Assembly (NCBI GenBank): GCA_026770025.1
Contig: JAMXDE010000015.1
Coordinates: 434,001 to 498,000 of the forward strand
Source of the DNA: Craspedostauros australis
Lineage: Eukaryota > Bacillariophyta > Bacillariophyceae > Mastogloiales > Achnanthaceae
Length of the DNA: 64,000 bases
Reading direction: 5' to 3'
Numbering within the stretch: position 1 is the first letter of the stretch; each line of letters starts with the position of its first letter. Under the pieces are notes generated by a model that saw only the letters and a list, made by a program, of their open reading frames with translations, searched no databases and was not told the DNA's origin. A program made the translations under genes and the position numbers. Below, one piece after another: positions 21,447-59,661 of the stretch.

Positions 21447-21448
21447 TA

Positions 21449-23421: not shown

Positions 23422-23449
23422 CCAAACATGTGTCATAGCACATGTTTGG
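23422..23449. other. Perfect 11-bp hairpin upstream of transposase, copy 2
   Basis: Same inverted repeat as 5515-5542, 268 bp before the transposase ATG at 23718. Confidence 0.7.
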
Positions 23450-25961: not shown

Positions 25962-26272
25962 TGGCTGTCAGTGGTCTGCAGTGCCTGAAAACGAACCTGC
26001 CAACAACCAGCAGCCTCATTCTGTTGCTGGAGAAGCAAATCGTTGTGACCACCAAAGCCAATGAGGAGGCTGAGCAACAGAAGAAAGGCAAGAAGACGCC
26101 CAGGAAGAGCAAAGCCGAGATCATTGAGCCTCACAACAACAACAACAACAACAACAACAACAGCAACACCAAGGCAGCACCCACCATGAACGCATTCGAA
26201 GTGGCCATTTTCGTTGGCAAGACCGAGCATCACAGCAAAGCAGAGCAGGACAGCAACACAGCAGAGATGTAA
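25937..26272 (+). CDS. Possible out-of-frame continuation of the transposase C-terminus, copy 2
   Basis: Identical to 8030-8365 in copy 1. The same frame change or 47 nt mini-intron (here 25935-25981) would be needed to attach it to the transposase. Confidence 0.4.
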   Translation: MYDDALKVMAVSGLQCLKTNLPTTSSLILLLEKQIVVTTKANEEAEQQKKGKKTPRKSKAEIIEPHNNNNNNNNNSNTKAAPTMNAFEVAIFVGKTEHHSKAEQDSNTAEM

Positions 26273-26695
26273 CTGCAAGTCGAAGTATTAGTACTATATG
26301 TTGGAGGTACACCTGTGGTTCGAATGGTTGTGTGCGCATCGTCTGCTTGATGGCATGGAGGATTGTGGTGTGATGTGTGGTGTGGGGTGTTTTTTTGTGT
26401 TTTGTGATGAGTGATGTGATTTTTGTGACGAGGACCGCTATTTTTGTGTTGCAGCACGGTCCGCGTGTGTTGCGGCGCGATTGGTGTGTGCGTCGTGGAG
26501 CCATCACGTTGTGTCGCGAAGCAAGGGCCATGTGCTGCGAGAAGCACTCACGTCTTGTGTTGTGAGTGGTTTCGCATGACGTCGAATCCATCCTGTGACG
26601 TAGAAGACGGATCATGGAGGAACAACACGAAATAGCTCTAAATGTACAATCGCCGTTGCTCCCAGAAGCAAGCAAACCAGTGGCAACAAGGGGCC

Positions 26696-26748
26696 AAAAC
26701 TCTACAACTAGTGCTATCGTGACCCCATTCTGCATTTGGTGCAGGTCG
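26696..26748 (-). repeat. Right terminal inverted repeat, transposon copy 2
   Basis: Identical to 8790-8842 and followed by TA at 26749-26750. Confidence 0.93.
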
Positions 26749-26750
26749 TA

Positions 26751-27697
26751 TGGAGTGTTGTGGACGTTGAAGGACTGGAATGGTGCTAGTCATTCCAAGA
26801 AAAAACTCATAAGTGTGATTCGCTTTCATTTTGTCCAAGGTCATGGTGTTGGAATCGCTGTTTAACGGGCTTGGCACGTCTTGGTCTTGTTGTGACGTAA
26901 TTGTGGTGCGAATGACACAAACGCCAGCTGCACAGAGAGGGGCGAGACATGGAGGAAGACATGGCTGGAGACATAGAGACATCGACGAAATCAAGGCGGA
27001 AAACTCTGTCGACAGCATGGTCTTGTTCCACGATCTCCATCCCTTCGCCACAGTGGAGGAGAGGGAGACGCAGAGAACAACACAAAGGCGAGGCGCAATG
27101 GAGGAGGGGAAAGCTTTCCTTGTTTCGTCTCCTGAACAACACCGCAGCGCTCCAGTCTGTGTGCCTCACCTCCTCACTTGCTTACCGCATCACACCGCAT
27201 CTCGCCACACGGTCCTTCGCTTTTGCCGCGGTGCCGCAGTCCACCTCTCTCCCTCTCTCGCTCTCTCTGCAGGCAGAACTGAAGAAGAGACGAACGTGCC
27301 GGTGTTGCCTCTCGCCCATCGTACGGCTACTCGCAGAGAGTCCCCGCAGCAACGCAAGCAGAGAGAGAGAGAGAGAGAGCATTGAGCACAAGACGATACG
27401 AGACGATACGATACGATACGATACAAGACGAGACGCGACAACCCTCGAACAACGCCTGCCACCATTCTTCGGCGTCGCTCGACATCCATTCCAGAGGAAA
27501 GGCGGCATCGCAAAACTCGAACTTGCGCAACCCCAGTTGTTGCCTGATACTCACACCAATAGCTCGTGCAAGTGCAGAGCACGGATACTGACAGCACCGA
27601 CCACCCGCATACGCACACCGCAACGACGACGAGGAAGAGGAAGAGGTTGCCAACCAAGCAAGGTGCACCACACAGCCTCCCCTCCACCGTCAGCACC
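26751..27697 (+). promoter_or_regulatory. Presumed promoter and 5' UTR of the giant stalk-protein gene
   Basis: 947 bp between transposon copy 2 and the giant gene's ATG. It holds CT-rich sequence (27244-27268), a GA run (27361-27379) and GATAC repeats (about 27393-27424). Frames of 184 and 250 codons are open here but run through these simple repeats and look non-coding. No core promoter element can be named with confidence. The transposon insertion may have displaced older upstream regulatory DNA. Confidence 0.4.
27244..27424. repeat. Cluster of CT, GA and GATAC simple repeats
   Basis: CT-rich tract at 27244-27268, GA run at 27361-27379 and GATAC pentamers at 27393-27424, all just upstream of the giant gene. 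Confidence 0.85.
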
Positions 27698-30600
27698 ATG
27701 AGTCGGAGAGATGCTAGCCACGGCAAGAGAGGCGGCAAGGATGCAACCAGCGACGGCGAGGGTGCTGCCATGGACTGGGACTGGGACTGGGATGAAGAGG
27801 CCAAGGGCAGCCAGCACGGTGGCAGAATCGACAGCGGGGCAGCCTTTCGGGACGGCATGCTGGATGAAGTCATGGAGGAGGAGCACCACGAGGACCTCAA
27901 TGCTCCCTTCGGATCGCTGGACAACAGCTTCACTCTGTACGTTCCTTCCTCCTTCGGCAGGGCAGCCGCCGCGGCCTTTTGCCAGGAGCATGGTGGGGGG
28001 ATGGCGTGCAGCAAGCCATCCATTCCATTGGCTTGATCGCTCACCGCAACAATGATTCACTCACTCGGTTGCTCTTGTTGTTGTTAACTTTTGGTTCCTT
28101 GCTCTGGGGGTTTCAATCCTATCTCCGTCTCTGCTCCATCTCCGCCCCCTTTCGCGTCGCTTGTCTTGCGGCGTGCGGATGGGATCTTGCCACCACATCC
28201 ATGTTTTTGCATCCATGACGAAAGACCGCCGCTGGTTGACGACGACAGAACCGGTGGCACCAACAGCAAGCTCGACGTTGATCCATCCGCATCTAGCAGG
28301 AGCATTTCCAATCGCCTTCAAGAAGAGAGCAGCGCAAATGAGGAGGAGTTCATCGCCCTGAGAACAGGAGGTGACCGAAGCAACAGATACCGCAGCGCAA
28401 GTCCTGATGCCACCGCAATACCCGGCAAACAAAGCACAGAGTTATCGCCGATGAGGGTCCGGGCTGGTTCGGACGATGTGAGTTTCTCGTTGGGCAACAG
28501 CAACCATGTCCAAAATTTCGTTAGCCCTGCGGAGACTACTCCTATCTTACCCATGACGGGGACGGTGTTTTCGGCTTCGTTTGATCGCATGGAGGACGCC
28601 ATGGCTCCGACATCGCCGCTGACGCCACAGCCAAAGCCGAAGGTCGTCGTGGACGTAGATCTCCATAACGGCAGCGATCAGAGCCTCCAGATGGAGAACT
28701 TCTTTGACGGCAACGGCGCGTTGACAGCGTTCATGCTGGACGGAGACGGCGACGACGACTCGGATGGCGATGACTTGCAAAGTGCGTACTTCGAAGCACT
28801 GCAGCAATCGCAGAAGTCGATGAGAGCGGACGATCTGGGCGCGCATCCAACCTCGGGATCGTCGAAGTCGCCGGCACTGGACGCGGATGCGGCGGGAACG
28901 GCACGATCAGGCACCAGTCCTGCAAAGCAGCAAGGAGACCTGCAGACGCTTCCGCATGGCACGTTAAGACCACCAACTGCGCAATTCCCACCGAGGATAA
29001 AAACCATCCGCTTTGCACCTGATGTCAATTTGCCACCTGAAATGGACCAAGCAGACACGTATCATGATGCGGCGATGGTGATGCCGGTGGAAGATGGAGG
29101 CGTTGGTAGCGACGCTGGCGGTAGCTACAGCTACAGTTACAGCGATAGTGACAGCGGGAAGGACGATCACAGCACTGCCAACGACGCTCGCGCCAATAAC
29201 AAGACAAATCCTGCCGTTGCTCCCAACCAGCGGATTGAGCAAGATCTGCACGTATCAGACCCAGAGCTCGCAGCCATCGACATGGACCAATCCATGGACC
29301 TTACTGGCATCATGGGCGAGGACCAGGCGACGACGGCGACGACGGACAACAAGGCAGGTGGGGCAGATCCGAAGGACGAATCGTCTCTCAAAAGTCTGGG
29401 CGGAATATTCGGAACGAGCGCAGATGACAGTTTCGGCGTCGAAAGCTTGATGTTCAACCAGCTTCCTTCGGGGGATGACTCGCTCAAGAAATCGAACAAT
29501 GCTTCTTCCGCCATGAGCCAGGATGCTGAGACGGAGAAAGAGAAGACCAAGAAAGAACTGGAAGAAGACGAGGAGGAAAAGCAAGCCAAGGAAGTTGTGA
29601 AAGGCATGGCATTCGCTGGACTCGGCATGGGCTTCATGGCCGGGGCAGGGTGGCTATTCAAGAGAATCAGGAGTCAATCCAATGACAACGGACGCGATGA
29701 AATTGAAGCCGCAGGAGGGAGCGCCTTGCAAAACGGGGCGACAGCCAATGGTGGAGGAGCTTCTGCGACGACCACAGGAGAAGCAGCATCCGCGATGGCA
29801 GCGCCGCCACCAGCTGGAGCGGAAACCGCCTTGAGCGGTTCGATGAACGGATCCATGAACGCTTCGATGAATGCATCGTCCCAGAATTTTGCTGTCGTGG
29901 CCGCTCCGGTGAACCCTGGCGCCGCGGCAGCAACGACGGCACAGTAAGTAACTCCGCTGAAAACATTGGAGTCGAACAAAGACGCTCAGAGCGCTGCCTT
30001 CATGCTACGTCATGCCACGCACATCTCACGCCATTTGTTCCATTTGCTACTGTCGTTGCTTTACCATTTTGGATTGGGTCCACACGCACTTTCTACCAAA
30101 TAGAACGCAGGTTATCCAATCGATGGCGATCAGTGCAGCAAGCAATGCTGCATCCTCGGTGGCGGCCGTGACAACAGCCACGGCAGCCGTCGCGGCGGGC
30201 GCAGGGACGAGTGCTGGGTTGGTGGGTGGTTTGGCTGCTGGTATCGCCGGAGCTTCGACTGTCACCAAAGTTGCTGTGAGCGTCGGGTTGGTTTCAACGG
30301 TGATCGTGGCATCGAACTCGGAGTACATTGCAGAGATTGTATCCCCAGCAACAACTCTCCCGAGAAGCACATGCGACAGCAACCCTGTCACCTCGCAGGG
30401 ATATCTCTCCACTTTTCTGAACCCCGCTTTCCCAGCACTTGGGACACAAGGGATCACGACAAATATGCTTACCAAAACCTTTGAGGATGCGTACAATCAG
30501 GTATCGCTTCAGTGCAACGAGTTGTTTGAGCGCAGCATCCCAGCACAAGGCGCCGAAATCGGAAACTGGACGATTGACGAATCCTTCCTCACAATTGATT

Positions 30601-33600
30601 GGGTGGTGTCGGTGAGTTGCCGACGCCCCAAGTGCCCCGACCTTGATGCTTTATTTGGGACTGTGGCAAACCAAACAGAAGCTGACGCAACGAGAAAGCT
30701 TCAGCAAGTGAGCGACCAAGACAGCAACACCACAGACGAAGTCCAGACTGACACAAGCTCGTCCGTGTCATACAAAGACGTCATCATCCTCTTCACACAA
30801 ATGCTATCAGACATGGTTGTCGGCTCGACCAACCTAACAAGGAATGAACAGCTCGTCTACAAAAGCACGATATTCTCGCCTGAAGCCGAAGAGGTCCGGA
30901 CGGTTGTCATCACGCGTGAGGATTTGGGACTGAACAATGCAACAGCATCGTCTCCCATGCCGTCGTCCGAGTTTTCGACGTCGCCACCAACGTCGGAGGA
31001 CGACATTCCGGGAACGTCACTGTCACCAACGCCCATCGACAGTCCATTGACAGAGCCGCCCAGTACGTCGCAAGCGCCGACAGGAGCCAATCAAGTAGAA
31101 CGAACCGACCAGCCGACCTTTCCACCCTCGTCCATTCCAACAACTTCGAGCAATCCATCAGGTCCGACACTAGCACCTACCGACAGTCCGACTGTTCGAC
31201 CAACTCAAAGCCAAGCACCGACCACAGAGGATGAAAAGGAGACAGCGCAACCAACCTTTCCACCGTCCATGCTACCATCGGGTTCAATTCAACCGATAGC
31301 ACCAACAACCGCGCCGACGAGTCCACCAACATCAACAACGGTGTCGTCGCACCTGCCAACCACATCAAATGGCGAGACTGCCCAGCCAACATTTCCACCA
31401 AGTGAAACGCCATCAGCAACAGCACAGCCAACAGGTCCAACAACACAACCAACGCACCAGCAAAGTGGAGTACCATCCTCAACCTCGACACCGACACAAG
31501 AGAACAAGGAAACACGATCACCAACGTTCCCGCCGTCGAGTGCACCATCGGTCACAGGACAGCCAACACAAACAACGCAAGCAACAGAACAGCCAAGTGA
31601 TCGGCCAACATCTGCACCAGCATCATCACAGTCGCAGTCACCAACAGAGGATGATGGAAGTGACATCAGCAGCTCGCCGTCATCGCAGACTACCGGTGCA
31701 CCATCCGTGACGTCTCAACCGACACAAACAACGCAAGCAACAGAACAGCCAAGTGATCGGCCAACATCTGCACCAGCATCATCACAGTCGCAGTCACCAA
31801 CAGAGGATGATGGAAGTGACATCAGCAGCTCGCCGTCATCGCAGACTACCGGTGCACCATCCGTGACGTCTCAACCGACACAAACAACGCAAGCAACAGA
31901 ACAGCCAAGTGATCGGCCAACATCTGCACCAGCATCATCACAGTCGCAGTCACCAACAGAGGATGATGGAAGTGACATCAGCAGCTCGCCGTCATCGCAG
32001 ACTACCGGTGCACCATCCGTGACGTCTCAACCGACACAAACAACGCAAGCAACAGAACAGCCAAGTGATCGGCCAACATCTGCACCAGCATCATCTCAGT
32101 CGCAGTCACCAACAGAGGATGATGGAAGTGACATCAGCAGCTCGCCGTCATCGCAGACTACCGGTGCACCATCCGTGACGTCTCAACCGACACAAACAAC
32201 GCAAGCAACAGAACAGCCAAGTGATCGGCCAACATCTGCACCAGCATCATCTCAGTCGCAGTCACCAACAGAGGATGATGGAAGTGACATCAGCAGCTCG
32301 CCGTCATCGCAGACTACCGGTGCACCATCGGTCACAGGACAGCCAACACAAACAACGCAAGCAACAGAACAGCCAAGTGATCGGCCAACATCTGCACCAG
32401 CATCATCTCAGTCGCAGTCACCAACAGAGGATGATGGAAGTGACATCAGCAGCTCGCCGTCATCGCAGACTACCGGTGCACCATCGGTCACAGGACAGCC
32501 AACACAAACAACTCAAGCAACAGAACAGCCAAGTGATCGGCCAACATCTGCACCAGCATCATCACAGTCGCAGTCACCAACAGAGGATGATGGAAGTGAC
32601 ATCAGCAGCTCGCCGTCATCGCAGACTACCGGTGCACCATCCGTGACGTCTCAACCGACACAAACAACGCAAGCAACAGAACAGCCAAGTGATCGGCCAA
32701 CATCTGCACCAGCATCATCACAGTCGCAGTCACCAACAGAGGATGATGGAAGTGACATCAGCAGCTCGCCGTCATCGCAGACTACCGGTGCACCATCCGT
32801 GACGTCTCAACCGACACAAACAACGCAAGCAACAGAACAGCCAAGTGATCGGCCAACATCTGCACCAGCATCATCACAGTCGCAGTCACCAACAGAGGAT
32901 GATGGAAGTGACATCAGCAGCTCGCCGTCATCGCAGACTACCGGTGCACCATCCGTGACGTCTCAACCGACACAAACAACGCAAGCAACAGAACAGCCAA
33001 GTGATCGGCCAACATCTGCACCAGCATCATCTCAGTCGCAGTCACCAACAGAGGATGATGGAAGTGACATCAGCAGCTCGCCGTCATCGCAGACTACCGG
33101 TGCACCATCCGTGACGTCTCAACCGACACAAACAACGCAAGCAACAGAACAGCCAAGTGATCGGCCAACATCTGCACCAGCATCATCACAGTCGCAGTCA
33201 CCAACAGAGGATGATGGAAGTGACATCAGCAGCTCGCCGTCATCGCAGACTACCGGTGCACCATCCGTGACGTCTCAACCGACACAAACAACGCAAGCAA
33301 CAGAACAGCCAAGTGATCGGCCAACATCTGCACCAGCATCATCTCAGTCGCAGTCACCAACAGAGGATGATGGAAGTGACATCAGCAGCTCGCCGTCATC
33401 GCAGACTACCGGTGCACCATCCGTGACGTCTCAACCGACACAAACAACTCAAGCAACAGAACAGCCAAGTGATCGGCCAACATCTGCACCAGCATCATCA
33501 CAGTCGCAGTCACCAACAGAGGATGATGGAAGTGACATCAGCAGCTCGCCGTCATCGCAGACTACCGGTGCACCATCCGTGACGTCTCAACCGACACAAA

Positions 33601-36600
33601 CAACGCAAGCAACAGAACAGCCAAGTGATCGGCCAACATCTGCACCAGCATCATCTCAGTCGCAGTCACCAACAGAGGATGATGGAAGTGACATCAGCAG
33701 CTCGCCGTCATCGCAGACTACCGGTGCACCATCCGTGACGTCTCAACCGACACAAACAACTCAAGCAACAGAACAGCCAAGTGATCGGCCAACATCTGCA
33801 CCAGCATCATCTCAGTCGCAGTCACCAACAGAGGATGATGGAAGTGACATCAGCAGCTCGCCGTCATCGCAGACTACCGGTGCACCATCGGTCACAGGAC
33901 AGCCAACACAAACAACTCAAGCAACAGAACAGCCAAGTGATCGGCCAACATCTGCACCAGCATCATCACAGTCGCAGTCACCAACAGAGGATGATGGAAG
34001 TGACATCAGCAGCTCGCCGTCATCGCAGACTACCGGTGCACCATCCGTGACGTCTCAACCGACACAAACAACGCAAGCAACAGAACAGCCAAGTGATCGG
34101 CCAACATCTGCACCAGCATCATCTCAGTCGCAGTCACCAACAGAGGATGATGGAAGTGACATCAGCAGCTCGCCGTCATCGCAGACTACCGGTGCACCAT
34201 CCGTGACGTCTCAACCGACACAAACAACGCAAGCAACAGAACAGCCAAGTGATCGGCCAACATCTGCACCAGCATCATCTCAGTCGCAGTCACCAACAGA
34301 GGATGATGGAAGTGACATCAGCAGCTCGCCGTCATCGCAGACTACCGGTGCACCATCCGTGACGTCTCAACCGACACAAACAACGCAAGCAACAGAACAG
34401 CCAAGTGATCGGCCAACATCTGCACCAGCATCATCACAGTCGCAGTCACCAACAGAGGATGATGGAAGTGACATCAGCAGCTCGCCGTCATCGCAGACTA
34501 CCGGTGCACCATCCGTGACGTCTCAACCGACACAAACAACGCAAGCAACAGAACAGCCAAGTGATCGGCCAACATCTGCACCAGCATCATCTCAGTCGCA
34601 GTCACCAACAGAGGATGATGGAAGTGACATCAGCAGCTCGCCGTCATCGCAGACTACCGGTGCACCATCCGTGACGTCTCAACCGACACAAACAACGCAA
34701 GCAACAGAACAGCCAAGTGATCGGCCAACATCTGCACCAGCATCATCTCAGTCGCAGTCACCAACAGAGGATGATGGAAGTGACATCAGCAGCTCGCCGT
34801 CATCGCAGACTACCGGTGCACCATCCGTCACAGGACAGCCAACACAAACAACGCAAGCAACAGAACAGCCAAGTGATCGGCCAACATCTGCACCAGCATC
34901 ATCACAGTCGCAGTCACCAACAGAGGATGATGGAAGTGACATCAGCAGCTCGCCGTCATCGCAGACTACCGGTGCACCATCCGTGACGTCTCAACCGACA
35001 CAAACAACGCAAGCAACAGAACAGCCAAGTGATCGGCCAACATCTGCACCAGCATCATCACAGTCGCAGTCACCAACAGAGGATGATGGAAGTGACATCA
35101 GCAGCTCGCCGTCATCGCAGACTACCGGTGCACCATCCGTGACGTCTCAACCGACACAAACAACTCAAGCAACAGAACAGCCAAGTGATCGGCCAACATC
35201 TGCACCAGCATCATCACAGTCGCAGTCACCAACAGAGGATGATGGAAGTGACATCAGCAGCTCGCCGTCATCGCAGACTACCGGTGCACCATCCGTGACG
35301 TCTCAACCGACACAAACAACTCAAGCAACAGAACAGCCAAGTGATCGGCCAACATCTGCACCAGCATCATCACAGTCGCAGTCACCAACAGAGGATGATG
35401 GAAGTGACATCAGCAGCTCGCCGTCATCGCAGACTACCGGTGCACCATCCGTGACGTCTCAACCGACACAAACAACGCAAGCAACAGAACAGCCAAGTGA
35501 TCGGCCAACATCTGCACCAGCATCATCACAGTCGCAGTCACCAACAGAGGATGATGGAAGTGACATCAGCAGCTCGCCGTCATCGCAGACTACCGGTGCA
35601 CCATCCGTGACGTCTCAACCGACACAAACAACGCAAGCAACAGAACAGCCAAGTGATCGGCCAACATCTGCACCAGCATCATCACAGTCGCAGTCACCAA
35701 CAGAGGATGATGGAAGTGACATCAGCAGCTCGCCGTCATCGCAGACTACCGGTGCACCATCCGTGACGTCTCAACCGACACAAACAACGCAAGCAACAGA
35801 ACAGCCAAGTGATCGGCCAACATCTGCACCAGCATCATCTCAGTCGCAGTCACCAACAGAGGATGATGGAAGTGACATCAGCAGCTCGCCGTCATCGCAG
35901 ACTACCGGTGCACCATCCGTGACGTCTCAACCGACACAAACAACTCAAGCAACAGAACAGCCAAGTGATCGGCCAACATCTGCAACAGCATCATCTCAGT
36001 CGCAGTCACCAACAGAGGATGATGGAAGTGACATCAGCAGCTCGCCGTCATCGCAGACTACCGGTGCACCATCCGTGACGTCTCAACCGACACAAACAAC
36101 GCAAGCAACAGAACAGCCAAGTGATCGGCCAACATCTGCACCAGCATCATCTCAGTCGCAGTCACCAACAGAGGATGATGGAAGTGACATCAGCAGCTCG
36201 CCGTCATCGCAGACTACCGGTGCACCATCCGTGACGTCTCAACCGACACAAACAACGCAAGCAACAGAACAGCCAAGTGATCGGCCAACATCTGCACCAG
36301 CATCATCACAGTCGCAGTCACCAACAGAGGATGATGGAAGTGACATCAGCAGCTCGCCGTCATCGCAGACTACCGGTGCACCATCCGTGACGTCTCAACC
36401 GACACAAACAACGCAAGCAACAGAACAGCCAAGTGATCGGCCAACATCTGCACCAGCATCATCTCAGTCGCAGTCACCAACAGAGGATGATGGAAGTGAC
36501 ATCAGCAGCTCGCCGTCATCGCAGACTACCGGTGCACCATCCGTGACGTCTCAACCGACACAAACAACGCAAGCAACAGAACAGCCAAGTGATCGGCCAA

Positions 36601-39600
36601 CATCTGCACCAGCATCATCACAGTCGCAGTCACCAACAGAGGATGATGGAAGTGACATCAGCAGCTCGCCGTCATCGCAGACTACCGGTGCACCATCCGT
36701 GACGTCTCAACCGACACAAACAACGCAAGCAACAGAACAGCCAAGTGATCGGCCAACATCTGCACCAGCATCATCACAGTCGCAGTCACCAACAGAGGAT
36801 GATGGAAGTGACATCAGCAGCTCGCCGTCATCGCAGACTACCGGTGCACCATCCGTGACGTCTCAACCGACACAAACAACGCAAGCAACAGAACAGCCAA
36901 GTGATCGGCCAACATCTGCACCAGCATCATCTCAGTCGCAGTCACCAACAGAGGATGATGGAAGTGACATCAGCAGCTCGCCGTCATCGCAGACTACCGG
37001 TGCACCATCCGTGACGTCTCAACCGACACAAACAACTCAAGCAACAGAACAGCCAAGTGATCGGCCAACATCTGCACCAGCATCATCTCAGTCGCAGTCA
37101 CCAACAGAGGATGATGGAAGTGACATCAGCAGCTCGCCGTCATCGCAGACTACCGGTGCACCATCCGTGACGTCTCAACCGACACAAACAACTCAAGCAA
37201 CAGAACAGCCAAGTGATCGGCCAACATCTGCACCAGCATCATCACAGTCGCAGTCACCAACAGAGGATGATGGAAGTGACATCAGCAGCTCGCCGTCATC
37301 GCAGACTACCGGTGCACCATCCGTGACGTCTCAACCGACACAAACAACGCAAGCAACAGAACAGCCAAGTGATCGGCCAACATCTGCACCAGCATCATCA
37401 CAGTCGCAGTCACCAACAGAGGATGATGGAAGTGACATCAGCAGCTCGCCGTCATCGCAGACTACCGGTGCACCATCCGTGACGTCTCAACCGACACAAA
37501 CAACGCAAGCAACAGAACAGCCAAGTGATCGGCCAACATCTGCACCAGCATCATCTCAGTCGCAGTCACCAACAGAGGATGATGGAAGTGACATCAGCAG
37601 CTCGCCGTCATCGCAGACTACCGGTGCACCATCCGTGACGTCTCAACCGACACAAACAACGCAAGCAACAGAACAGCCAAGTGATCGGCCAACATCTGCA
37701 CCAGCATCATCTCAGTCGCAGTCACCAACAGAGGATGATGGAAGTGACATCAGCAGCTCGCCGTCATCGCAGACTACCGGTGCACCATCCGTGACGTCTC
37801 AACCGACACAAACAACTCAAGCAACAGAACAGCCAAGTGATCGGCCAACATCTGCACCAGCATCATCTCAGTCGCAGTCACCAACAGAGGATGATGGAAG
37901 TGACATCAGCAGCTCGCCGTCATCGCAGACTACCGGTGCACCATCGGTCACAGGACAGCCAACACAAACAACTCAAGCAACAGAACAGCCAAGTGATCGG
38001 CCAACATCTGCACCAGCATCATCTCAGTCGCAGTCACCAACAGAGGATGATGGAAGTGACATCAGCAGCTCGCCGTCATCGCAGACTACCGGTGCACCAT
38101 CCGTGACGTCTCAACCGACACAAACAACGCAAGCAACAGAACAGCCAAGTGATCGGCCAACATCTGCACCAGCATCATCACAGTCGCAGTCACCAACAGA
38201 GGATGATGGAAGTGACATCAGCAGCTCGCCGTCATCGCAGACTACCGGTGCACCATCCGTGACGTCTCAACCGACACAAACAACGCAAGCAACAGAACAG
38301 CCAAGTGATCGGCCAACATCTGCACCAGCATCATCACAGTCGCAGTCACCAACAGAGGATGATGGAAGTGACATCAGCAGCTCGCCGTCATCGCAGACTA
38401 CCGGTGCACCATCCGTGACGTCTCAACCGACACAAACAACGCAAGCAACAGAACAGCCAAGTGATCGGCCAACATCTGCACCAGCATCATCACAGTCGCA
38501 GTCACCAACAGAGGATGATGGAAGTGACATCAGCAGCTCGCCGTCATCGCAGACTACCGGTGCACCATCGGTCACAGGACAGCCAACACAAACAACTCAA
38601 GCAACAGAACAGCCAAGTGATCGGCCAACGAATGCATCAGCTTCGCCATCATCTTTACCATCATCTTCACCATCACAGGCACCATCGAGTGAAGAATCCA
38701 TCCACCCAACCGCCAGCCAGGCTCCAAGTGACGATCCAACGAATGCATCAGCTTCGCCATCTCAGTCACCATCATCTTCACCATCACAGGCACCATCGAG
38801 TGAAGAATCCATCCACCCAACCGCCAGCCAGGCTCCAAGTGACGATCCAACGAATGCATCAGCTTCGCCATCTCAGTCACCATCATCTTCACCATCACAG
38901 GCACCATCGAGTGAAGAATCCATCCACCCAACCGCCAGCCAGGCTCCAAGTGACGACCCAACGAATGCATCAGCTTCGCCATCATCTTCACCATCACAGG
39001 CACCATCGAGTGAAGAATCCATCCACCCAACCGCCAGCCAGGCTCCAAGTGACGATCCAACGAATGCATCAGCTTCGCCATCTCAGTCACCATCATCTTC
39101 ACCATCACAGGCACCATCGAGTGAAGAATCCATCCACCCAACCGCCAGCCAGGCTCCAAGTGACGACCCAACGAATGCATCAGCTTCGCCATCATCTTCA
39201 CCATCATCTTCACCATCACAGGCACCATCGAGTGAAGAATCCATCCACCCAACCGCCAGCCAGGCTCCAAGTGACGATCCAACGAATGCATCAGCTTCGC
39301 CATCTCAGTCACCATCATCTTCACCATCACAGGCACCATCGAGTGAAGAATCCATCCACCCAACCGCCAGCCAGGCTCCAAGTGACGATCCAACGAATGC
39401 ATCAGCTTCGCCATCTCAGTCACCATCATCTTCACCATCACAGGCACCATCGAGTGAAGAATCCATCCACCCAACCGCCAGCCAGGCTCCAAGTGACGAC
39501 CCAACGAATGCATCAGCTTCGCCATCATCTTCACCATCATCTTCACCATCACAGGCACCATCGAGTGAAGAATCCATCCACCCAACCGCCAGCCAGGCTC

Positions 39601-48600: not shown

Positions 48601-51600
48601 TCACACTCCGTCCGTGACGCCAACCACCTCTCAGGCACCATCAGAGTTACCGAGCGATTTTCCGTCGACTGTCCCGACGGGTTCGTCGCAGCCTTCTTCC
48701 AGCCCAAGCGATGAGCCCACCGCGTTGGCGTCTAATATTCCATCTGCAGGCCCTTCGGAATCAATACAGCCATCTTCTTTGCCTTCCCAACACCCATCAA
48801 TTGCAGAATCGGAACATCCATCGTCGAGCCATTCACCAAGTGGAATGCCGACATCAACAGCACCGACTAAGTCCTCACAACCATCCGTTATACCCACGAG
48901 ATCGTCATATCCATCAGAGTCAACATCACAGGCGCCCAGCGGCGAGGAATCCGCATACCCATCTGGAGCTCCGTCTGGGTCAGGAACGCCATCCATCTTA
49001 CCATCACAGGCACCCAGTGGCGAGGAGTCTGCATACCCATCAACTGGACCATCTAGTTCAGCAACGCCTTCTACGTCGCCATCACAGGCACCCAGTGGCG
49101 AGGAGTCTGCATACCCATCAACTGGACCATCTAGTTCAGCAACGCCTTCTACGTCACCATCACAGGCACCCAGTGGCGAAGAGTCTGCATACCCATCAAC
49201 TGGACCATCTAGTTCAGCAACGCCTTCTACGTCACCATCACAGGCACCCAGTGGCGAGGAGTCTGCATACCCATCTGGAGCTCCATCTAGTTCAGGAGCA
49301 CCGTCGTCGTCACCATCACAGGCACCCAGTGGCGAAGAGTCTGCATACCCATCAACTGGACCATCTAGTTCAGGAGCACCGTCGTCGTCACCATCACAGG
49401 CACCCAGTGGCAAAGAGTCTGCATACCCATCAACTGGACCATCTAGTTCAGCAACGCCTTCTACGTCACCATCACAGGCACCCAGTGGCGAAGAGTCTGC
49501 ATACCCATCTGGAGCTCCATCTAGTTCAGGAGCACCGTCGTCGTCACCATCACAGACACCCAGTGGCAAAGAGTCTGCATACCCATCAACTGGACCATCT
49601 AGTTCAGCAACGCCTTCTACGTCACCATCACAGGCACCCAGTGGCGAAGAGTCTGCATACCCATCAACTGGACCATCTAGTTCAGCAACGCCTTCTACGT
49701 CACCATCACAGGCACCCAGTGGCGAAGAGTCTGCATACCCATCTGGAGCTCCATCTAGTTCAGGAGCACCGTCGTCGTCACCATCACAGACACCCAGTGG
49801 CAAAGAGTCTGCATACCCATCAACTGGACCATCTAGTTCAGCAACGCCTTCTACGTCACCATCACAGGCACCCAGTGGCGAAGAGTCTGCATACCCATCT
49901 GGAGCTCCATCTAGTTCAGGAGCACCGTCGTCGTCACCATCACAGACACCCAGTGGCAAAGAGTCTGCATACCCATCAACTGGACCATCTAGTTCAGCAA
50001 CGCCTTCTACGTCACCATCACAGGCACCCAGTGGCGAAGAGTCTGCATACCCATCAACTGGACCATCTAGTTCAGCAACGCCTTCTACGTCACCATCACA
50101 GGCACCCAGTGGCGAAGAGTCTGCATACCCATCTGGAGCTCCATCTAGTTCAGGAGCACCGTCGTCGTCACCATCACAGACACCCAGTGGCAAAGAGTCT
50201 GCATACCCATCAACTGGACCATCTAGTTCAGCAACGCCTTCTACGTCACCATCACAGGCACCCAGTGGCGAAGAGTCTGCATACCCATCAACTGGACCAT
50301 CTAGTTCAGCAACGCCTTCTACGTCACCATCACAGGCACCCAGTGGCGAGGAGTCTGCATACCCATCTGGAGCTCCATCTAGTTCAGGAGCACCGTCGTC
50401 GTCACCATCACAGACACCCAGTGGCAAAGAGTCTGCATACCCATCAACTGGACCATCTAGTTCAGCAACGCCTTCTACGTCACCATCACAGGCACCCAGT
50501 GGCGAAGAGTCTGCATACCCATCAACTGGACCATCTAGTTCAGGAGCACCGTCGTCGTCACCATCACAGACACCCAGTGGCGAAGAGTCTGCATACCCAT
50601 CAACTGGACCATCTAGTTCAGCAACGCCTTCTACGTCACCATCACAGGCACCCAGTGGCGAGGAGTCTGCATACCCATCTGGAGCTCCATCTAGTTCAGG
50701 AGCACCGTCGTCGTCACCATCACAGGCACCCAGTGGCGAAGAGTCTGCATACCCATCAACTGGACCATCTAGTTCAGCAACGCCTTCTACGTCACCATCA
50801 CAGGCACCCAGTGGCGAAGAGTCTGCATACCCATCAACTGGACCATCTAGTTCAGGAGCACCGTCGTCGTCACCATCACAGACACCCAGTGGCAAAGAGT
50901 CTGCATACCCATCAACTGGACCATCTAGTTCAGCAACGCCTTCTACGTCACCATCACAGGCACCCAGTGGCGAGGAGTCTGCATACCCATCTGGAGCTCC
51001 ATCTAGTTCAGGAGCACCGTCGTCGTCACCATCACAGACACCCAGTGGCAAAGAGTCTGCATACCCATCAACTGGACCATCTAGTTCAGCAACGCCTTCT
51101 ACGTCACCATCACAGGCACCCAGTGGCGAAGAGTCTGCATACCCATCAACTGGACCATCTAGTTCAGCAACGCCTTCTACGTCACCATCACAGGCACCCA
51201 GTGGCGAAGAGTCTGCATACCCATCAACTGGACCATCTAGTTCAGGAGCACCGTCGTCGTCACCATCACAGACACCCAGTGGCAAAGAGTCTGCATACCC
51301 ATCAACTGGACCATCTAGTTCAGCAACGCCTTCTACGTCACCATCACAGGCACCCAGTGGCGAGGAGTCTGCATACCCATCTGGAGCTCCATCTAGTTCA
51401 GGAGCACCGTCGTCGTCACCATCACAGACACCCAGTGGCAAAGAGTCTGCATACCCATCAACTGGACCATCTAGTTCAGCAACGCCTTCTACGTCACCAT
51501 CACAGGCACCCAGTGGCGAAGAGTCTGCATACCCATCAACTGGACCATCTAGTTCAGGAGCACCGTCGTCGTCACCATCACAGACACCCAGTGGCGAAGA

Positions 51601-54600
51601 GTCTGCATACCCATCAACTGGACCATCTAGTTCAGCAACGCCTTCTACGTCACCATCACAGGCACCCAGTGGCGAGGAGTCTGCATACCCATCTGGAGCT
51701 CCATCTAGTTCAGGAGCACCGTCGTCGTCACCATCACAGGCACCCAGTGGCGAAGAGTCTGCATACCCATCAACTGGACCATCTAGTTCAGCAACGCCTT
51801 CTACGTCACCATCACAGGCACCCAGTGGCGAAGAGTCTGCATACCCATCAACTGGACCATCTAGTTCAGGAGCACCGTCGTCGTCACCATCACAGACACC
51901 CAGTGGCAAAGAGTCTGCATACCCATCAACTGGACCATCTAGTTCAGCAACGCCTTCTACGTCACCATCACAGGCACCCAGTGGCGAGGAGTCTGCATAC
52001 CCATCTGGAGCTCCATCTAGTTCAGGAGCACCGTCGTCGTCACCATCACAGACACCCAGTGGCAAAGAGTCTGCATACCCATCAACTGGACCATCTAGTT
52101 CAGCAACGCCTTCTACGTCACCATCACAGGCACCCAGTGGCGAAGAGTCTGCATACCCATCAACTGGACCATCTAGTTCAGCAACGCCTTCTACGTCACC
52201 ATCACAGGCACCCAGTGGCGAAGAGTCTGCATACCCATCAACTGGACCATCTAGTTCAGGAGCACCGTCGTCGTCACCATCACAGACACCCAGTGGCGAA
52301 GAGTCTGCATACCCATCAACTGGACCATCTAGTTCAGCAACGCCTTCTACGTCACCATCACAGGCACCCAGTGGCGAGGAGTCTGCATACCCATCTGGAG
52401 CTCCATCTAGTTCAGGAGCACCGTCGTCGTCACCATCACAGGCACCCAGTGGCGAAGAGTCTGCATACCCATCTGGAGCTCCATCTAGTTCAGGAGCACC
52501 GTCGTCGTCACCATCACAGACACCCAGTGGCAAAGAGTCTGCATACCCATCAACTGGACCATCTAGTTCAGCAACGCCTTCTACGTCACCATCACAGGCA
52601 CCCAGTGGCGAAGAGTCTGCATACCCATCAACTGGACCATCTAGTTCAGCAACGCCTTCTACGTCACCATCACAGGCACCCAGTGGCGAAGAGTCTGCAT
52701 ACCCATCTGGAGCTCCATCTAGTTCAGGAGCACCGTCGTCGTCACCATCACAGACACCCAGTGGCAAAGAGTCTGCATACCCATCAACTGGACCATCTAG
52801 TTCAGCAACGCCTTCTACGTCACCATCACAGGCACCCAGTGGCGAAGAGTCTGCATACCCATCTGGAGCTCCATCTAGTTCAGGAGCACCGTCGTCGTCA
52901 CCATCACAGACACCCAGTGGCAAAGAGTCTGCATACCCATCAACTGGACCATCTAGTTCAGCAACGCCTTCTACGTCACCATCACAGGCACCCAGTGGCG
53001 AAGAGTCTGCATACCCATCAACTGGACCATCTAGTTCAGCAACGCCTTCTACGTCACCATCACAGGCACCCAGTGGCGAAGAGTCTGCATACCCATCACT
53101 GGAGCTCCATCTAGTTCAGGAGCACCGTCGTCGTCACCATCACAGACACCCAGTGGCGAAGAGTCTGCATACCCATCAACTGGACCATCTAGTTCAGCAA
53201 CGCCTTCTACGTCACCATCACAGGCACCCAGTGGCGAAGAGTCTGCATACCCATCTGGAGCTCCATCTAGTTCAGGAGCACCGTCGTCGTCACCATCACA
53301 GACACCCAGTGGCAAAGAGTCTGCATACCCATCAACTGGACCATCTAGTTCAGCAACGCCTTCTACGTCACCATCACAGGCACCCAGTGGCGAAGAGTCT
53401 GCATACCCATCAACTGGACCATCTAGTTCAGCAACGCCTTCTACGTCACCATCACAGGCACCCAGTGGCGAAGAGTCTGCATACCCATCTGGAGCTCCAT
53501 CTAGTTCAGGAGCACCGTCGTCGTCACCATCACAGACACCCAGTGGCAAAGAGTCTGCATACCCATCAACTGGACCATCTAGTTCAGCAACGCCTTCTAC
53601 GTCACCATCACAGGCACCCAGTGGCGAAGAGTCTGCATACCCATCAACTGGACCATCTAGTTCAGCAACGCCTTCTACGTCACCATCACAGGCACCCAGT
53701 GGCGAGGAGTCTGCATACCCATCTGGAGCTCCATCTAGTTCAGGAGCACCGTCGTCGTCACCATCACAGACACCCAGTGGCAAAGAGTCTGCATACCCAT
53801 CAACTGGACCATCTAGTTCAGCAACGCCTTCTACGTCACCATCACAGGCACCCAGTGGCGAAGAGTCTGCATACCCATCAACTGGACCATCTAGTTCAGG
53901 AGCACCGTCGTCGTCACCATCACAGACACCCAGTGGCGAAGAGTCTGCATACCCATCAACTGGACCATCTAGTTCAGCAACGCCTTCTACGTCACCATCA
54001 CAGGCACCCAGTGGCGAGGAGTCTGCATACCCATCTGGAGCTCCATCTAGTTCAGGAGCACCGTCGTCGTCACCATCACAGGCACCCAGTGGCGAAGAGT
54101 CTGCATACCCATCAACTGGACCATCTAGTTCAGCAACGCCTTCTACGTCACCATCACAGGCACCCAGTGGCGAAGAGTCTGCATACCCATCAACTGGACC
54201 ATCTAGTTCAGGAGCACCGTCGTCGTCACCATCACAGACACCCAGTGGCAAAGAGTCTGCATACCCATCAACTGGACCATCTAGTTCAGCAACGCCTTCT
54301 ACGTCACCATCACAGGCACCCAGTGGCGAGGAGTCTGCATACCCATCTGGAGCTCCATCTAGTTCAGGAGCACCGTCGTCGTCACCATCACAGACACCCA
54401 GTGGCAAAGAGTCTGCATACCCATCAACTGGACCATCTAGTTCAGCAACGCCTTCTACGTCACCATCACAGGCACCCAGTGGCGAAGAGTCTGCATACCC
54501 ATCAACTGGACCATCTAGTTCAGCAACGCCTTCTACGTCACCATCACAGGCACCCAGTGGCGAAGAGTCTGCATACCCATCAACTGGACCATCTAGTTCA

Positions 54601-57600
54601 GCAACGCCTTCTACGTCACCATCACAGGCACCCAGTGGCGAAGAGTCTGCATACCCATCTGGAGCTCCATCTAGTTCGGGAACGCCATCCATCTTACCAT
54701 CACAGGCACCCAGTGGCAAAGAGTCTGCATACCCATCAACTGGACCATCTAGTTCAGCAACGCCTTCTACGTCACCATCACAGGCACCCAGTGGCGAAGA
54801 GTCTGCATACCCATCAACTGGACCATCTAGTTCAGGAGCACCGTCGTCGTCACCATCACAGACACCCAGTGGCGAAGAGTCTGCATACCCATCAACTGGA
54901 CCATCTAGTTCAGCAACGCCTTCTACGTCACCATCACAGGCACCCAGTGGCGAAGAGTCTGCATACCCATCAACTGGACCATCTAGTTCAGGAGCACCGT
55001 CGTCGTCACCATCACAGGCACCCAGTGGCGAAGAGTCTGCATACCCATCAACTGGACCATCTAGTTCAGCAACGCCTTCTACGTCACCATCACAGGCACC
55101 CAGTGGCGAGGAGTCTGCATACCCATCTGGAGCTCCATCTAGTTCAGGAGCACCGTCGTCGTCACCATCACAGACACCCAGTGGCAAAGAGTCTGCATAC
55201 CCATCAACTGGACCATCTAGTTCAGCAACGCCTTCTACGTCACCATCACAGGCACCCAGTGGCGAAGAGTCTGCATACCCATCAACTGGACCATCTAGTT
55301 CAGCAACGCCTTCTACGTCACCATCACAGGCACCCAGTGGCGAGGAGTCTGCATACCCATCTGGAGCTCCATCTAGTTCAGGAGCACCGTCGTCGTCACC
55401 ATCACAGGCACCCAGTGGCGAAGAGTCTGCATACCCATCAACTGGACCATCTAGTTCAGCAACGCCTTCTACGTCACCATCACAGGCACCCAGTGGCGAA
55501 GAGTCTGCATACCCATCAACTGGACCATCTAGTTCAGCAACGCCTTCTACGTCACCATCACAGGCACCCAGTGGCGAGGAGTCTGCATACCCATCTGGAG
55601 CTCCATCTAGTTCGGGAACGCCATCCATCTTACCATCACAGGCACCCAGTGGTGAGGAATCCGCATACCCATCTGGAGATCCGTCTGGGTCAGGAACGCC
55701 TTCTACTGCACCATCACAATCACCCAGTGGCGAGAAGTTTGCATACCCATCAACTGGGCCATCTGGATCAAGCTCGCCTTCCAGCATACCATCGACAGGA
55801 CCATCAAGCTCAGGACAGCTTTCTGATGTACCATCACAGACACCTACTGGTGACGGGTCTACACACCCATCAACAACACCGTCTACTGAACCATCTGCGT
55901 CACCATCAGATTCTGAAAACCCATCTACGTTGCCTTCACAGGCACCCACAAGCCATGAATCTGTATACCCGTCAATATCACCATCTGCTGAGCCATCAGT
56001 AGCACCAACTGGATCAAGCGCGCCTTCCACGGAGCCATCACAAACACCCACTCAAGACGAATCTGAACATCCGTCTATTCGTTTGTCTTCAGCACCATCA
56101 ATGCAACCATCAGGATCAATAGTGCCATCGAGACAACCCTCTCAAAGTCCGGTTGTGGAACTATCGCCTCTTCCAACCAACAGCCAGTCACCAAGCGCCG
56201 ACCCGACATCATCGTCATCCTCACCATCCATGAATCCATCGAGCATGCTAACAGAGTCAAGTGGACCATCCACAGTACCATCACAACGTCCATCGGCTCA
56301 AGGATCTGCTGACCCAACTCAAAGTCAAGCACCAAGCAGTGAACCATCCGCTGCATCAGCAGCACCATCATCTGCGCCATCACAACGTCCATCGGCTGAA
56401 GAGTCTGCCCATCCCACCCAGACTCAAGCACCAAGCAGTGAACCATCGGCTACATCAGCAGCACCATCCACAGTACCATCACAACGTCCATCGGCTGAAG
56501 AGTCCGCCCATCCCACCCAAACTCAAGCACCAAGTAGTGAACCATCGGTTACATCAGCAGCACCATCCACAGCACCATCACAACGTCCATCGGCTGAGAA
56601 GTCCGCCCATCCCACCCAAACTCAAGCACCAAGCAGTGAACCATCGGCTACATCAGCAGCACCATCCTCTGCGCCATCACAACGTCCATCGGCTGAGAAG
56701 TCCGCCCATCCCACCCAGACTCAAGCACCAAGCAGTGAACCATCGGCTGCATCAGCAGCACCATCCACAGTACCATCACAACGTCCATCGGCTGAAGAGT
56801 CCGCCCATCCCACCCAGACTCAAGCACCAAGCAGTGAACCATCCGCTGCATCGGCAACACCATCCACAGTACCATCACAACGTCCATCGGCTGAGGAGTC
56901 CGCCCATCCCACCCAGACTCAAGCACCAAGCAGTGAACCATCGGCTACATCAGCCGTACCATCCTCTGCGCCATCACAAAGTCCATCGGCTGAAGAGTCC
57001 GCCCATCCCACCCAGACTCAAGCACCAAGCAGTGAACCATCGGCTGCATCAGCAGCACCATCCACAGTACCATCACAACGTCCATCGGCTGAAGAGTCCG
57101 CCCATCCCACCCAGACTCAAGCACCAAGCAGTGAACCATCCGCTGCATCGGCAACACCATCCACAGTACCATCACAACGTCCATCGGCTGAGGAGTCCGC
57201 CCATCCCACCCAGACTCAAGCACCAAGCAGTGAACCATCGGCTACATCAGCCGTACCATCCTCTGCGCCATCACAAAGTCCATCGGCTGAAGAGTCCGCC
57301 CATCCCACCCAGACTCAAGCACCAAGCAGTGAACCATCGGCTGCATCAGCAGCACCATCCACAGTACCATCACAACGTCCATCGGCTGAAGAGTCCGCCC
57401 ATCCCACCCAGACTCAAGCACCAAGCAGTGAACCATCCGCTGCATCGGCAACACCATCCACAGTACCATCACAACGTCCATCGGCTGAGGAGTCCGCCCA
57501 TCCCACCCAGACTCAAGCACCAAGCAGTGAACCATCGGCTACATCAGCCGTACCATCCTCTGCGCCATCACAAAGTCCATCGGCTGAAGAGTCCGCCCAT

Positions 57601-59661
57601 CCCACCCAGACTCAAGCACCAAGCAGTGAACCATCGGCTGCATCAGCAGCACCATCCACAGTACCATCACAACGTCCATCGGCTGAAGAGTCCGCCCATC
57701 CCACCCAGACTCAAGCACCAAGCAGTGAACCATCGGCTGCATCAGCAGCACCATCCACAGTACCATCACAACGTCCATCGGCTGAAGAGTCCGCCCATCC
57801 CACCCAGACTCAAGCACCAAGCAGTGAACCATCCGCTGCATCGGCAACACCATCCACAGTACCATCACAACGTCCATCGGCTGAGGAGTCCGCCCATCCC
57901 ACCCAGACTCAAGCACCAAGCAGTGAACCATCGGCTGCATCAGCCGTACCATCCTCTGCGCCATCACAACGTCCATCGGCTCAAGGATCTGCTGACCCAA
58001 CTCAAAGTCAAGCACCAAGCAGTGAACCATCGGCTACATCAGCAGCACCATCCACAGCACCATCACAACGTCCATCGGCTGAAGAGTCCGCCCATCCCAC
58101 CCAGACTCAAGCACCAAGCGCCAAGCCATCGGCTGCATCGGCAGCACCATCCTCTGCGCCATCACAAAGTCCATCGGCTGAAGGATCTGCTGACCCAACT
58201 CAAAGTCAAGCACCAAGCAGTGAACCATCGGCTGCATCGGCAACACCATCCACAGCACCATCTCAGAGTCCAACAGCTGAGGAGTCTGCCCATCCCACCC
58301 AGACTCAAGCACCAAGCAGTGAACCATCGGCTATATCAGCCGTACCATCCTCTGCGCCATCACAACGTCCATCGGCTGAAGAGTCCGCCCATCCCACCCA
58401 GACTCAAGCACCAAGCGCCAAGCCATCGGCTACATCGGCAGCACCATCCACATCACCATCACAACGTCCATCAGCTGAAGCGTCCGCCCATCCCACCCAG
58501 ACTCAAGCACCAAGCAGTGAACCATCGGCTGCATCGGTAGCACCATCCTCTGCGCCATCACAAAGTCCATCGGCTGAAGAGTCCGCCCATCCCACCCAGA
58601 CTCAAGCACCAAGCGCCAAGCCATCGGCTACATCGGCAGCACCATCCACATCACCATCACAACGTCCATCAGCTGAAGCGTCCGCCTATCCCAGCCAGAC
58701 TCAAGCACCAAGCAGTGAACCATCGGCTGCATCGGTAACACCATCCACAGTACCATCACAACGTCCGACAGCTGAGGAGTCCGCCCATCCCACCCAGACT
58801 CAAGCACCAAGCAGTGAACCATCGGCTGCATCAGCAGCACCGTCCACAGCACCATCACAACGTCCAACAGCTGAAGAGTCCGCCCATCCCACCCAGACTC
58901 AAGCACCAAGCGCCAAGCCATCGGCTGCATCGGCAGCACCATCCTCTGCGCCATCACAAAGTCCATCGGCTGAAGAGTCCGCCCATCCCACCCAGACTCA
59001 AGCACCAAGCGCCAAGCCATCGGCTACATCGGCAGCACCATCCACATCACCATCACAACGTCCATCAGCTGAAGCGTCCGCCCATCCCACCCAGACTCAA
59101 GCACCAAGCAGTGAACCATCGGCTGCATCGGTAATACCATCCACAGTACCATCACAACGTCCGACAGCTGAGGAGTCCGCCCATCCCACCCAGACTCAAG
59201 CACCAAGCAGTGAACCATCGGCTGCATCAGCAGCACCGTCCACAGCACCATCACAACGTCCAACAGCTGAAGAGTCCGCCCATCCCACCCAGACTCAAGC
59301 ACCAAGCGTGACGCCTTCGGGTGTTACATCAACTACTCCGTCAAGCTTGCCGACCCTCGTACCTGAGATATCCGAAGACCCATCAAATCGCCCGTCCTCT
59401 GCCCCTTCACAACTTGATGCCTTCACACTTTCACCAGAAATGTCACCATCGAGTTGCGGCCTTCCCTGTGGGGCTGACATCAGTTCAGAAAGCAGGCAAC
59501 TGGTCTGTACCGTCAGCACCAGCAGGCAAAGATGCAAGTTTGCCTCATCGGGACTCACTACCCGCGAAGCATGTGGATGTTGTTCTGGCACATACGTCGA
59601 TTCGCCGGCTTGCCGTGCCTCGAACACGCCCGCTGAATACGCAGCAAACTGTTGCGTATGA
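27698..59661 (+). CDS. Giant membrane-anchored Pro/Ser/Thr-rich repeat protein (mucin- or adhesin-like), three exons
   Basis: Proposed exons 27698-27936, 28249-29943 and 30104-59661, about 31.5 kb coding or 10,500 residues. ATG 27698 has A at -3 (ACCATGA). Exons 1-2 encode a polar, acidic region ending in a hydrophobic Gly-rich segment (29594-29670) followed by KRIR. Exon 3 starts with an Ala/Gly/Val-rich hydrophobic stretch (30126-30330), then an ectodomain of about 200 residues with Cys and several N-glycosylation sequons (NWT, NQT, NTT, NLT, NAT). Next come a degenerate Pro/Thr linker, arrays A-D and a 10-Cys C-terminus. The design suggests a surface or wall-associated stalk held in the membrane at its N-terminal side. 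The frame is interrupted about six times in the arrays (near 40153, 41447, 42676, 42827, 42945-43045 and 53096). These could be consensus errors in repeats or real damage. Frame-consistent unit lengths on both sides favour one gene. Function is inferred from composition only. Confidence 0.7.
27937..28248 (+). other. Intron 1 of the giant gene
   Basis: Donor GTACGT follows a phase 2 exon end. No AG occurs between about 28015 and 28223. The first two AGs after this tract (28223-28224 and 28247-28248) are both in the right phase to join the downstream open frame; the second is a CAG and is preferred. Without splicing, the upstream frame stops at 28034-28036, and the downstream frame has no ATG near its beginning. 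Confidence 0.7.
29944..30103 (+). other. Intron 2 of the giant gene
   Basis: A consensus donor, GTAAGT, overlaps the apparent stop codon at 29945-29947. The preceding exon ends in phase 2. The next AG after an AG-free tract of about 110 nt is AAATAG at 30102-30103, which restores exactly the frame of the downstream 3,384-codon ORF. The alternative AG at 30109-30110 would give the wrong frame. Confidence 0.75.
30126..30945 (+). other. Hydrophobic anchor plus small ectodomain of the giant protein
   Basis: The Ala/Gly/Val-rich segment is long enough for one or two membrane passes. It is followed by a Cys-containing domain (TCDSN, LQCNELFERS, VSCRRPKC) with an NWT sequon and, after NQT/NTT sites, a predicted globular tail up to about residue pair NNATAS. 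A Cys-bearing domain ahead of a Pro/Ser stalk is a layout I associate with diatom surface proteins, but I cannot name a domain. Confidence 0.5.
30946..31544 (+). repeat. Degenerate Pro/Thr/Ser linker before array A
   Basis: Irregular QPTFPPS and APTxSPT-type motifs without a fixed period. These may be old, diverged repeat units next to the homogenised array. Confidence 0.7.
31545..38629 (+). repeat. Array A: 156-bp (52-residue) tandem repeat, about 46 copies
   Basis: The marker TCGGCCAAC recurs at exact 156 bp steps from 31601 to 38621, i.e. 45 periods. Units contain QPSDRPTSAP and PTEDDGSD and differ almost only at a few fixed synonymous sites plus the VTS/VTG alternative. One unit near 35983 has Thr for Pro. 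The frame is intact throughout. Confidence 0.97.
38630..48145 (+). repeat. Array B: 111-bp (37-residue) tandem repeat, about 86 copies
   Basis: Units contain PSQAPSSEESIHPTASQAPS followed by DDPTNASASPS. A 9-12 bp Ser/Pro segment varies (CAGTCA or TCTTCA forms, or absent). Period checked over 20 units: 2,220 bp between 43561 and 45781. Five of the six frame breaks of the gene fall in this array, between 40153 and 43045. The NAS tripeptide in each unit is a potential N-glycosylation site. Confidence 0.96.
42945..43045 (+). other. Degenerate patch inside array B
   Basis: About 100 bp in which the repeat is recognisable but carries many substitutions and indels, unlike the near-identical units on either side. 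It contains stops in more than one frame. It could be a poorly resolved stretch of the assembly or a real scar. Confidence 0.7.
48146..48925 (+). repeat. Diverged PSxxPS linker between arrays B and C
   Basis: About 260 codons of PS(A/G)xPS(S/x)-type motifs, including repeated VPT and GVPS steps, each unit different from the next. In contrast with the flanking arrays there is no recent homogenisation here. Confidence 0.8.
48926..55740 (+). repeat. Array C: 78-bp (26-residue) tandem repeat, about 87 copies
   Basis: Units read (A/T)PSG(E/K)ESAYPS followed by either TGPSSSATPSTS, TGPSSSGAPSSS or GAPSSSGAPSSS, then PSQ. These variants recur in ordered groups, giving a higher-order structure. One 2-nt frame change occurs near 53096 at a hybrid between the two variant types. 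The array decays into diverged units after about 55660. Confidence 0.95.
55741..56271 (+). repeat. Diverged Pro/Ser linker between arrays C and D
   Basis: PS-rich, with individually different units, including EHPS and YPS motifs related to the arrays. The frame is open. Confidence 0.75.
56272..59310 (+). repeat. Array D: 99-bp (33-residue) tandem repeat, about 31 copies
   Basis: Units contain PSQRPSAEESAHPTQTQAPS and SEPSA(A/T)SA. From about 56648 to 57538 the pattern repeats with a 297 bp (three-unit) higher-order period. Toward the 3' end units are more diverged, with AKPS replacing SEPS in several. Confidence 0.95.
59311..59661 (+). other. Cys-rich C-terminal domain of the giant protein
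   Basis: After a short Ser/Pro tail, the last 70 or so residues hold ten cysteines, including CGLPC, CGCC and the terminal CCV. The even number and spacing suggest a disulfide-bonded head at the end of the stalk. No hydrophobic GPI-type tail follows. I do not recognise the fold. Confidence 0.75.

Follow-up and report, generated by a model that had tools for sequence, protein, structure and literature searches.

A probable megadalton mucin-like tether gene spanning four tandem repeat arrays, and its membrane-associated relatives, in the diatom Craspedostauros australis

Adhesive-trail proteins described from a diatom reach very large sizes, and the available passages on Craspedostauros australis give about 900 kDa for CaTrailin4 and more than 1 MDa for Ca5609 (PMC11420354), while work on gliding diatoms puts adhesive-trail proteins at a length of roughly 2 micrometres (PMC11420354, PMC13056149). 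How they are linked to the cell interior is left open in the passages of both sources available to us (PMC11420354, PMC13056149), and in the gliding-diatom paper, as far as its available part goes, the drawing of the adhesion machinery shows a transmembrane complex without a name where the membrane is crossed (PMC13056149). For Seminavis, the excerpt at hand counts 61 VWD proteins that also have GDPH (PMC7335047). Here we describe a locus of C. australis within a 64,000-nucleotide stretch of DNA (the window; C13:434001-498000 of a 74.8-Mb, 90-contig genome) that probably holds one gene, whose product of about 10,500 residues would be a mucin-like tether at the cell surface and may act in adhesion. 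Coordinates are those of the window, and features of the gene lie on its + strand. At about 1.0 MDa before glycans, the protein was fairly placed by an earlier note on this DNA among the longest of its kind, but it is not unique, as the passages just cited already hold diatom proteins of about 900 kDa and more than 1 MDa (PMC11420354).

Translation and codon phase begin the gene at an ATG at 27698, and exon 1 (27698-27936) encodes an Asp/Trp/Glu-rich N-terminus that runs to a GTACGT donor. Exon 2 (28225-29943) encodes an acidic N-terminal region, and the terminal exon 3 (30104-59661) encodes the ectodomain, the arrays and a 10-Cys tail before the stop codon at 59659-59661, with six frame breaks as assembled. 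We placed the introns at 27937-28224 and 29944-30103 by inference from phase and GT-AG signals; alignment to relatives whose N-terminal parts lie in single open frames backs the position at which exon 3 starts. Both the start and the stop given by the earlier note are present, as is its 10-Cys C-terminal domain (59455-59658). Its single gene of about 10,500 codons agrees with our codon sum without the two introns, 10,505.3 (about 10,505), the fraction being due to the net frame shift; the frame is discontinuous, however, and a single gene is read across the six breaks. Similarly, the N-terminal membrane anchor proposed before corresponds to a hydrophobic region that does exist ahead of the ectodomain, but this sits about 540-720 residues from the protein start and not at the extreme N-terminus. 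A weak hydrophobic segment (29597-29659; hydropathy below the 1.4 mark) occupies, by eye and unaligned, the place of a stronger first hydrophobic segment in the relatives, and is followed in exon 3 by an Ala-rich hydrophobic segment (30105-30350) common to the three relatives. The ectodomain with its conserved Cys residues (30351-30950, outer limits approximate) is likewise common to the relatives on contigs C1, C55 and C36, and four copies of a PTFPPS motif (31113-31538) lie inside a PS-rich stretch ahead of the arrays. Exon 1 had no Pfam match, and exon 2 had neither a Pfam match above the cut-off nor a relative in the genome itself. The 10-Cys tail found only itself in the own-genome search and had no significant match in Pfam, NCBIfam or PDB; the NCBIfam search returned solely matches far under the cut-off, and a single PDB profile match of the tail (E 0.32) was rejected. 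Single-sequence structure prediction gave a mean pLDDT of 49.8 for the tail and 35.7 for the ectodomain, too poor for a fold search with either.

Most of exon 3 consists of tandem arrays, whose limits we took from TRF and whose regularity we counted as inter-unit intervals. Array 1 (31566-38629) has a 156-bp unit, kept in 45/45 intervals, and array 2 (38613-48144) has about 84 units of 111 bp, kept in 76/83. Array 3 (48919-55764) is built of about 87 units of 78 bp (85/86 intervals) arranged in higher-order repeats, for which TRF reports periods of 156 and 234, i.e. multiples of 78, and array 4 (56265-59311) has a 99-bp unit (25/27 intervals, the remaining two being 198 bp). Interval counts and TRF therefore agree on four successive arrays with units of 156, 111, 78 and 99 bp, as had been claimed. 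The accompanying figure, over 27 kb, slightly overestimates the extent of the arrays, since TRF totals 26.47 kb and 27.7 kb is reached only when the degenerate PS-rich linkers are counted. That the arrays are homogenised is true of array 2, in which 64 of the 76 regular units are identical, and array 1 is also nearly homogeneous, but it fits array 4 poorly, with 14 unit types among 25 regular units. Repeated blocks occur in the unit order of arrays 3 and 4, which is the expectation under unequal exchange.

We found that all five joins (array to array and array to flank) are in frame by the units' own phase, with frame 0 leading from the ectodomain through array 1 into array 2, frame 2 from array 2 into array 3, and frame 1 from array 3 through array 4 into the tail. 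One continuous frame, as claimed previously, is nevertheless contradicted by the assembled sequence, which has stops at 40164, 42932 and 56000 and six intervals not divisible by three, on which the earlier note is silent. Frame 0 is open across array 1 until the stop at 40164, the open part of frame 2 extends from the stop at 42932 to that at 56000, and frame 1 is open over 53032-59659, which includes the 3' end. The six intervals (five in array 2, of 83, 112, 112, 110 and 290 bp, and one of 80 bp at 53063-53143 in array 3) all lie inside arrays and none at a junction, and array 1 has no frame break at all. Those of array 2 fall in one stretch (40122-43112) that includes a scrambled 290-bp patch (42822-43112), which is 71 edits away from three consensus units, while 64 of the 83 array 2 intervals are exact consensus. 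With so many edits among near-identical units, the patch looks like poor consensus within a repeat, although homogeneity alone is no predictor of breaks, as near-homogeneous array 1 has none. The breaks might instead be real, in a recently broken member of its family (pseudogenised, or truncated in one allele) whose arrays were coding until lately. This would accommodate the six intervals and the stops within the claimed frame, and the relative on contig C36 is broken as well, in 5 of the 68 intervals of its 135-bp array (C36:1-18000). Yet five of the six breaks in the window gene lie within 3 kb, one of them the scrambled patch, unlike scattered decay, and the frame is kept in the rest of the arrays and at all five junctions, which makes recent breakage unlikely in our judgement. 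Most likely, the six breaks are chiefly errors of assembly or consensus calling where the repeats are near-identical, and the gene would be intact in the cell.

Evidence for coding comes from variation among the repeat units. We sorted the distinct unit variants into synonymous and non-synonymous ones and took the non-synonymous/synonymous ratio per site, using regular units only (irregular intervals left out were 0/45, 7/83, 1/86 and 2/27 for arrays 1-4), with one-sided, uncorrected p values. Ratios in the claimed frame were 0.13 for array 1 (p 0.0016; 8 synonymous, 3 non-synonymous), 0.28 for array 3 (p 0.0006; 17 and 12) and 0.48 for array 4 (p 0.03; 14 and 18), and codon position 3 was the commonest variant site of that frame in these three arrays, whereas the other two + frames gave 0.84-3.6. 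In array 2, with five distinct variants only (2 synonymous, 3 not), a selection signal was absent (p 0.38). With fixed tiling, the ratios were 0.13-0.39 in arrays 1, 3 and 4, and in array 2 they were 0.52 in the clean block and 0.74 in a block with a register shift. Together these counts support the observation that the units of arrays 1, 3 and 4 vary preferentially at synonymous sites of the claimed frame. The minus frame with coinciding third positions scored 0.36 in array 1 (p 0.095), 0.31 in array 2 (two variants), 0.39 in array 3 (p 0.01) and 0.47 in array 4 (p 0.03), the last slightly under the 0.48 of the claimed frame. In this minus frame a stop interrupts the consensus of arrays 1, 2 and 4, and that of array 3 is free of stops. 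The strand was accordingly chosen by these minus-frame stops and by the connection to the N-terminal exons. Open reading frames of at least 1,000 codons do occur out of frame on both strands in the arrays, as one might find if the region held several separate genes, or a non-coding satellite left open by the chance of its three-multiple units. We consider both very improbable, as among the + frames the synonymous bias is confined to the claimed one, and exons homologous to unbroken relatives run on into the arrays through linkers that are in frame.

Additional support for a single coding unit comes from these relatives. The 279-aa N-terminal module recurs at three further places in the genome, on contigs C1, C55 and C36. 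Counted from its Met, the C1 relative has 8,532 aa (806 kDa) in one unbroken frame, that on C55 is an unbroken frame of 3,901 aa (372 kDa), both proteins being P/S/T-rich (64-65% in the slices measured), and that on C36 exits the contig start within its array. N-terminal identity to the C36 relative is 48% for C55, 37% for C1 and 30% for the window protein. In the own-genome search the window module found C1 with an E of 9.7e-9, and its ectodomain without the Ala-rich part did so by BLASTP at 5e-6; moreover, against a profile of the other three the window ectodomain scored 13.3 bits, beating all of 1,000 shuffles, which peak at 8.5. The PTFPPS motif is present ahead of the arrays in four copies in the window gene, two in C1, three in C55 and four in C36, with none in shuffles. 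Having both the Ala-rich membrane segment and the Cys-containing ectodomain, the window gene groups with this family. Considering this N-terminal homology to three repeat genes, two of them unbroken, and the protein-sparing unit variation, the product is supported as a predicted membrane-associated, very long P/S/T-rich protein. PDB profile matches of the N-terminal alignment (E 0.016 and 0.3) fall in Ala- or Gly-rich parts and were rejected. Within its first 200 residues the window protein lacks a strict IQ-like pattern, and the motif is weak in the relatives, where Pfam IQ reaches an E of 0.057 on C1 and the strict pattern occurs in C36 only; since the Pfam match is below the cut-off, we treat a cytoskeletal link as a lead only.

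The far ends of the family differ. A C-terminal domain of about 130 aa is common to the relatives on C1, C55 and C21, the last being the 3' part only of a gene, with an open frame of 5,519 codons to the contig end. When used in an own-genome search, this domain matched C1, C55, C3 and C21 and not the window gene, which is unlike its relatives at both ends, as its long acidic N-terminus and its 10-Cys tail are each without relatives. Plausibly, the assembly has divided a single gene between C36, with the N-terminal half, and C21, with the C-terminal half, but the two have 0 40-mers in common. Giant repeat genes can evidently be broken or split in this way, C36 and C21 both ending inside arrays, and such genes may therefore be absent or fragmented in other annotations. 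The relatives' C-terminal domain had zero PDB profile matches, and among 52 pattern matches in bacterial and archaeal genomes there was no relative, so that at this sensitivity we see no sign of a recent bacterial origin. The match on C3 (C3:2090750-2091148, minus strand) belongs to a short gene for a 246-aa Lys/Ser-rich protein, which we take to be silaffin-like, with a start that resembles a signal peptide by eye and an end domain of the C1 type (39% identity, E 1e-29, pairwise). One docking domain of the giants, if such is its function, thus also occurs on a short Lys/Ser-rich protein.

Composition was measured on arrays 1 and 4 without their edges and on about half of arrays 2 and 3. Ser, Thr and Pro make up 54-64% of these pieces, which are net acidic and Cys-free, and as long P/S/T-rich tandem repeats the arrays are mucin-like. 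N-glycosylation sequons number 27 per 1,000 aa in array 2, with none in the other arrays, and Lys and Arg are scarce; in the consensus units of arrays 1 and 4 the Arg is followed by Pro. Seven window pieces were scanned with Pfam. The PT disordered repeat (PF04886) matched a three-unit piece of array 2 (E 9.2e-7), the sole model over its cut-off; it came just under the cut-off in the linker at 48170-48919, and the remaining five pieces had no match. No VWD domain was found by Pfam in exon 1, most of exon 2, the ectodomain, sample array units, both linkers or the tail. With regard to topology, the relatives have a Gly-rich loop between two hydrophobic segments, and the window protein has two such segments, the first weak and followed by positive charges by eye, so that topology is ambiguous and the protein may be N-out or possibly even have both ends inside.

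We propose that the N-terminal part would be inserted in the plasma membrane, or in a secretory or silica-vesicle membrane, and that disordered, O-glycosylated arrays would extend from it as a stalk measuring a few micrometres at most (arithmetic with an assumed 0.3 nm per residue), with the disulfide-bonded Cys tail docking in wall, mucilage or substratum. Unequal exchange or gene conversion would set the array length, which the earlier note expects to differ between individuals, and at the same time homogenise the units. The protein could alternatively be a glycocalyx mucin, protective or lubricating and not load-bearing, with a Cys tail that multimerises or caps and grips nothing. The composition of the Cys-free array pieces and the disordered-repeat match would suit such a mucin, and according to the available text one C. 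australis protein of mucin-like character may reduce friction (PMC11420354), but an end domain conserved in three relatives suggests binding at the far end, and although this alternative deserves to be taken seriously we hold it to be the less probable one. A broader version of the tether reading is that, in algae with silica walls, the family forms the membrane-spanning link from the cell interior to the wall or to adhesive strands, each member combining a cytoplasmic or membrane module, a micrometre-long glycosylated stalk and one of several interchangeable docking domains; at this stage we offer this generalisation as speculation with a rather small chance of being right. For experiment, the family offers concrete genes to tag or delete, encoding membrane-associated giants that differ in the far-end domain.

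Several features of the surroundings are recorded here for completeness. Two direct 5.3-kb copies (3540-8846 and 21447-26752; 99.98% identical), one of which stops some 950 bp ahead of the ATG of the giant gene, each contain a 747-aa ORF that presumably resembles a DNA-transposon transposase; the one copy scanned had no Pfam match. At the window edges lie an open frame with a glycosyltransferase family 2 match (18-944, + strand; chitin synthase below the cut-off) and one cut by the window end with a DUF3684 match (60597-63995, minus strand; E 1.7e-58). Elsewhere in the genome, the Rubisco large subunit scores almost equally (1049-1072 bits) against five PDB Rubiscos, a spread that does not separate pennate from centric; we take the genome's enzyme to be red-type and the five to be from diatoms. 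Small-subunit rRNA was found by DNA pattern on two contigs, which by eye and recall we assume to be mitochondrial, and the plastid contig has a G+C content of 29.8% over the part examined. The silicon-transporter family PF03842 has 88 matches on many contigs, some of them exon pieces; 32 are near full profile length, 28 of these without an internal stop. This copy count is at the high end of the range of 2-3 to more than 30 given for diatoms and Parmales in the passage available (PMC13403384). By themselves, Rubisco and silicon transporters would point most probably to a diatom and less so to another silicified ochrophyte.

A search of the literature by titles and passages turned up no paper that we recognised as describing this family of giants. 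The window protein is thus of a known kind, the giant mucin-like surface proteins, with a combination of modules for which we found no description in the titles and passages searched. It resembles CaTrailin4 and Ca5609, as far as the available passages describe them, in size class and as one of the very large modular extracellular proteins proposed as a bridge from the cell to a surface. Set against the description of these two, it may differ in that the window pieces scanned have no VWD domain, and an N-terminal membrane module common to several giants is a feature of the window family. The diatom wall protein CaFAP1 is mucin-like by its description in the passages at hand (PMC11420354), and to that extent the window protein is like it. 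Similar to FMG1 of the Chlamydomonas ciliary coat, finally, it would be a membrane-anchored, mucin-like algal glycoprotein (PMC12021028, available part). However, FMG1 is described there as having folded repeats with almost no sequence identity between them and a C-terminal anchor (PMC12021028), whereas the repeats of the window protein are near-identical and probably disordered, and its membrane module is N-terminal.
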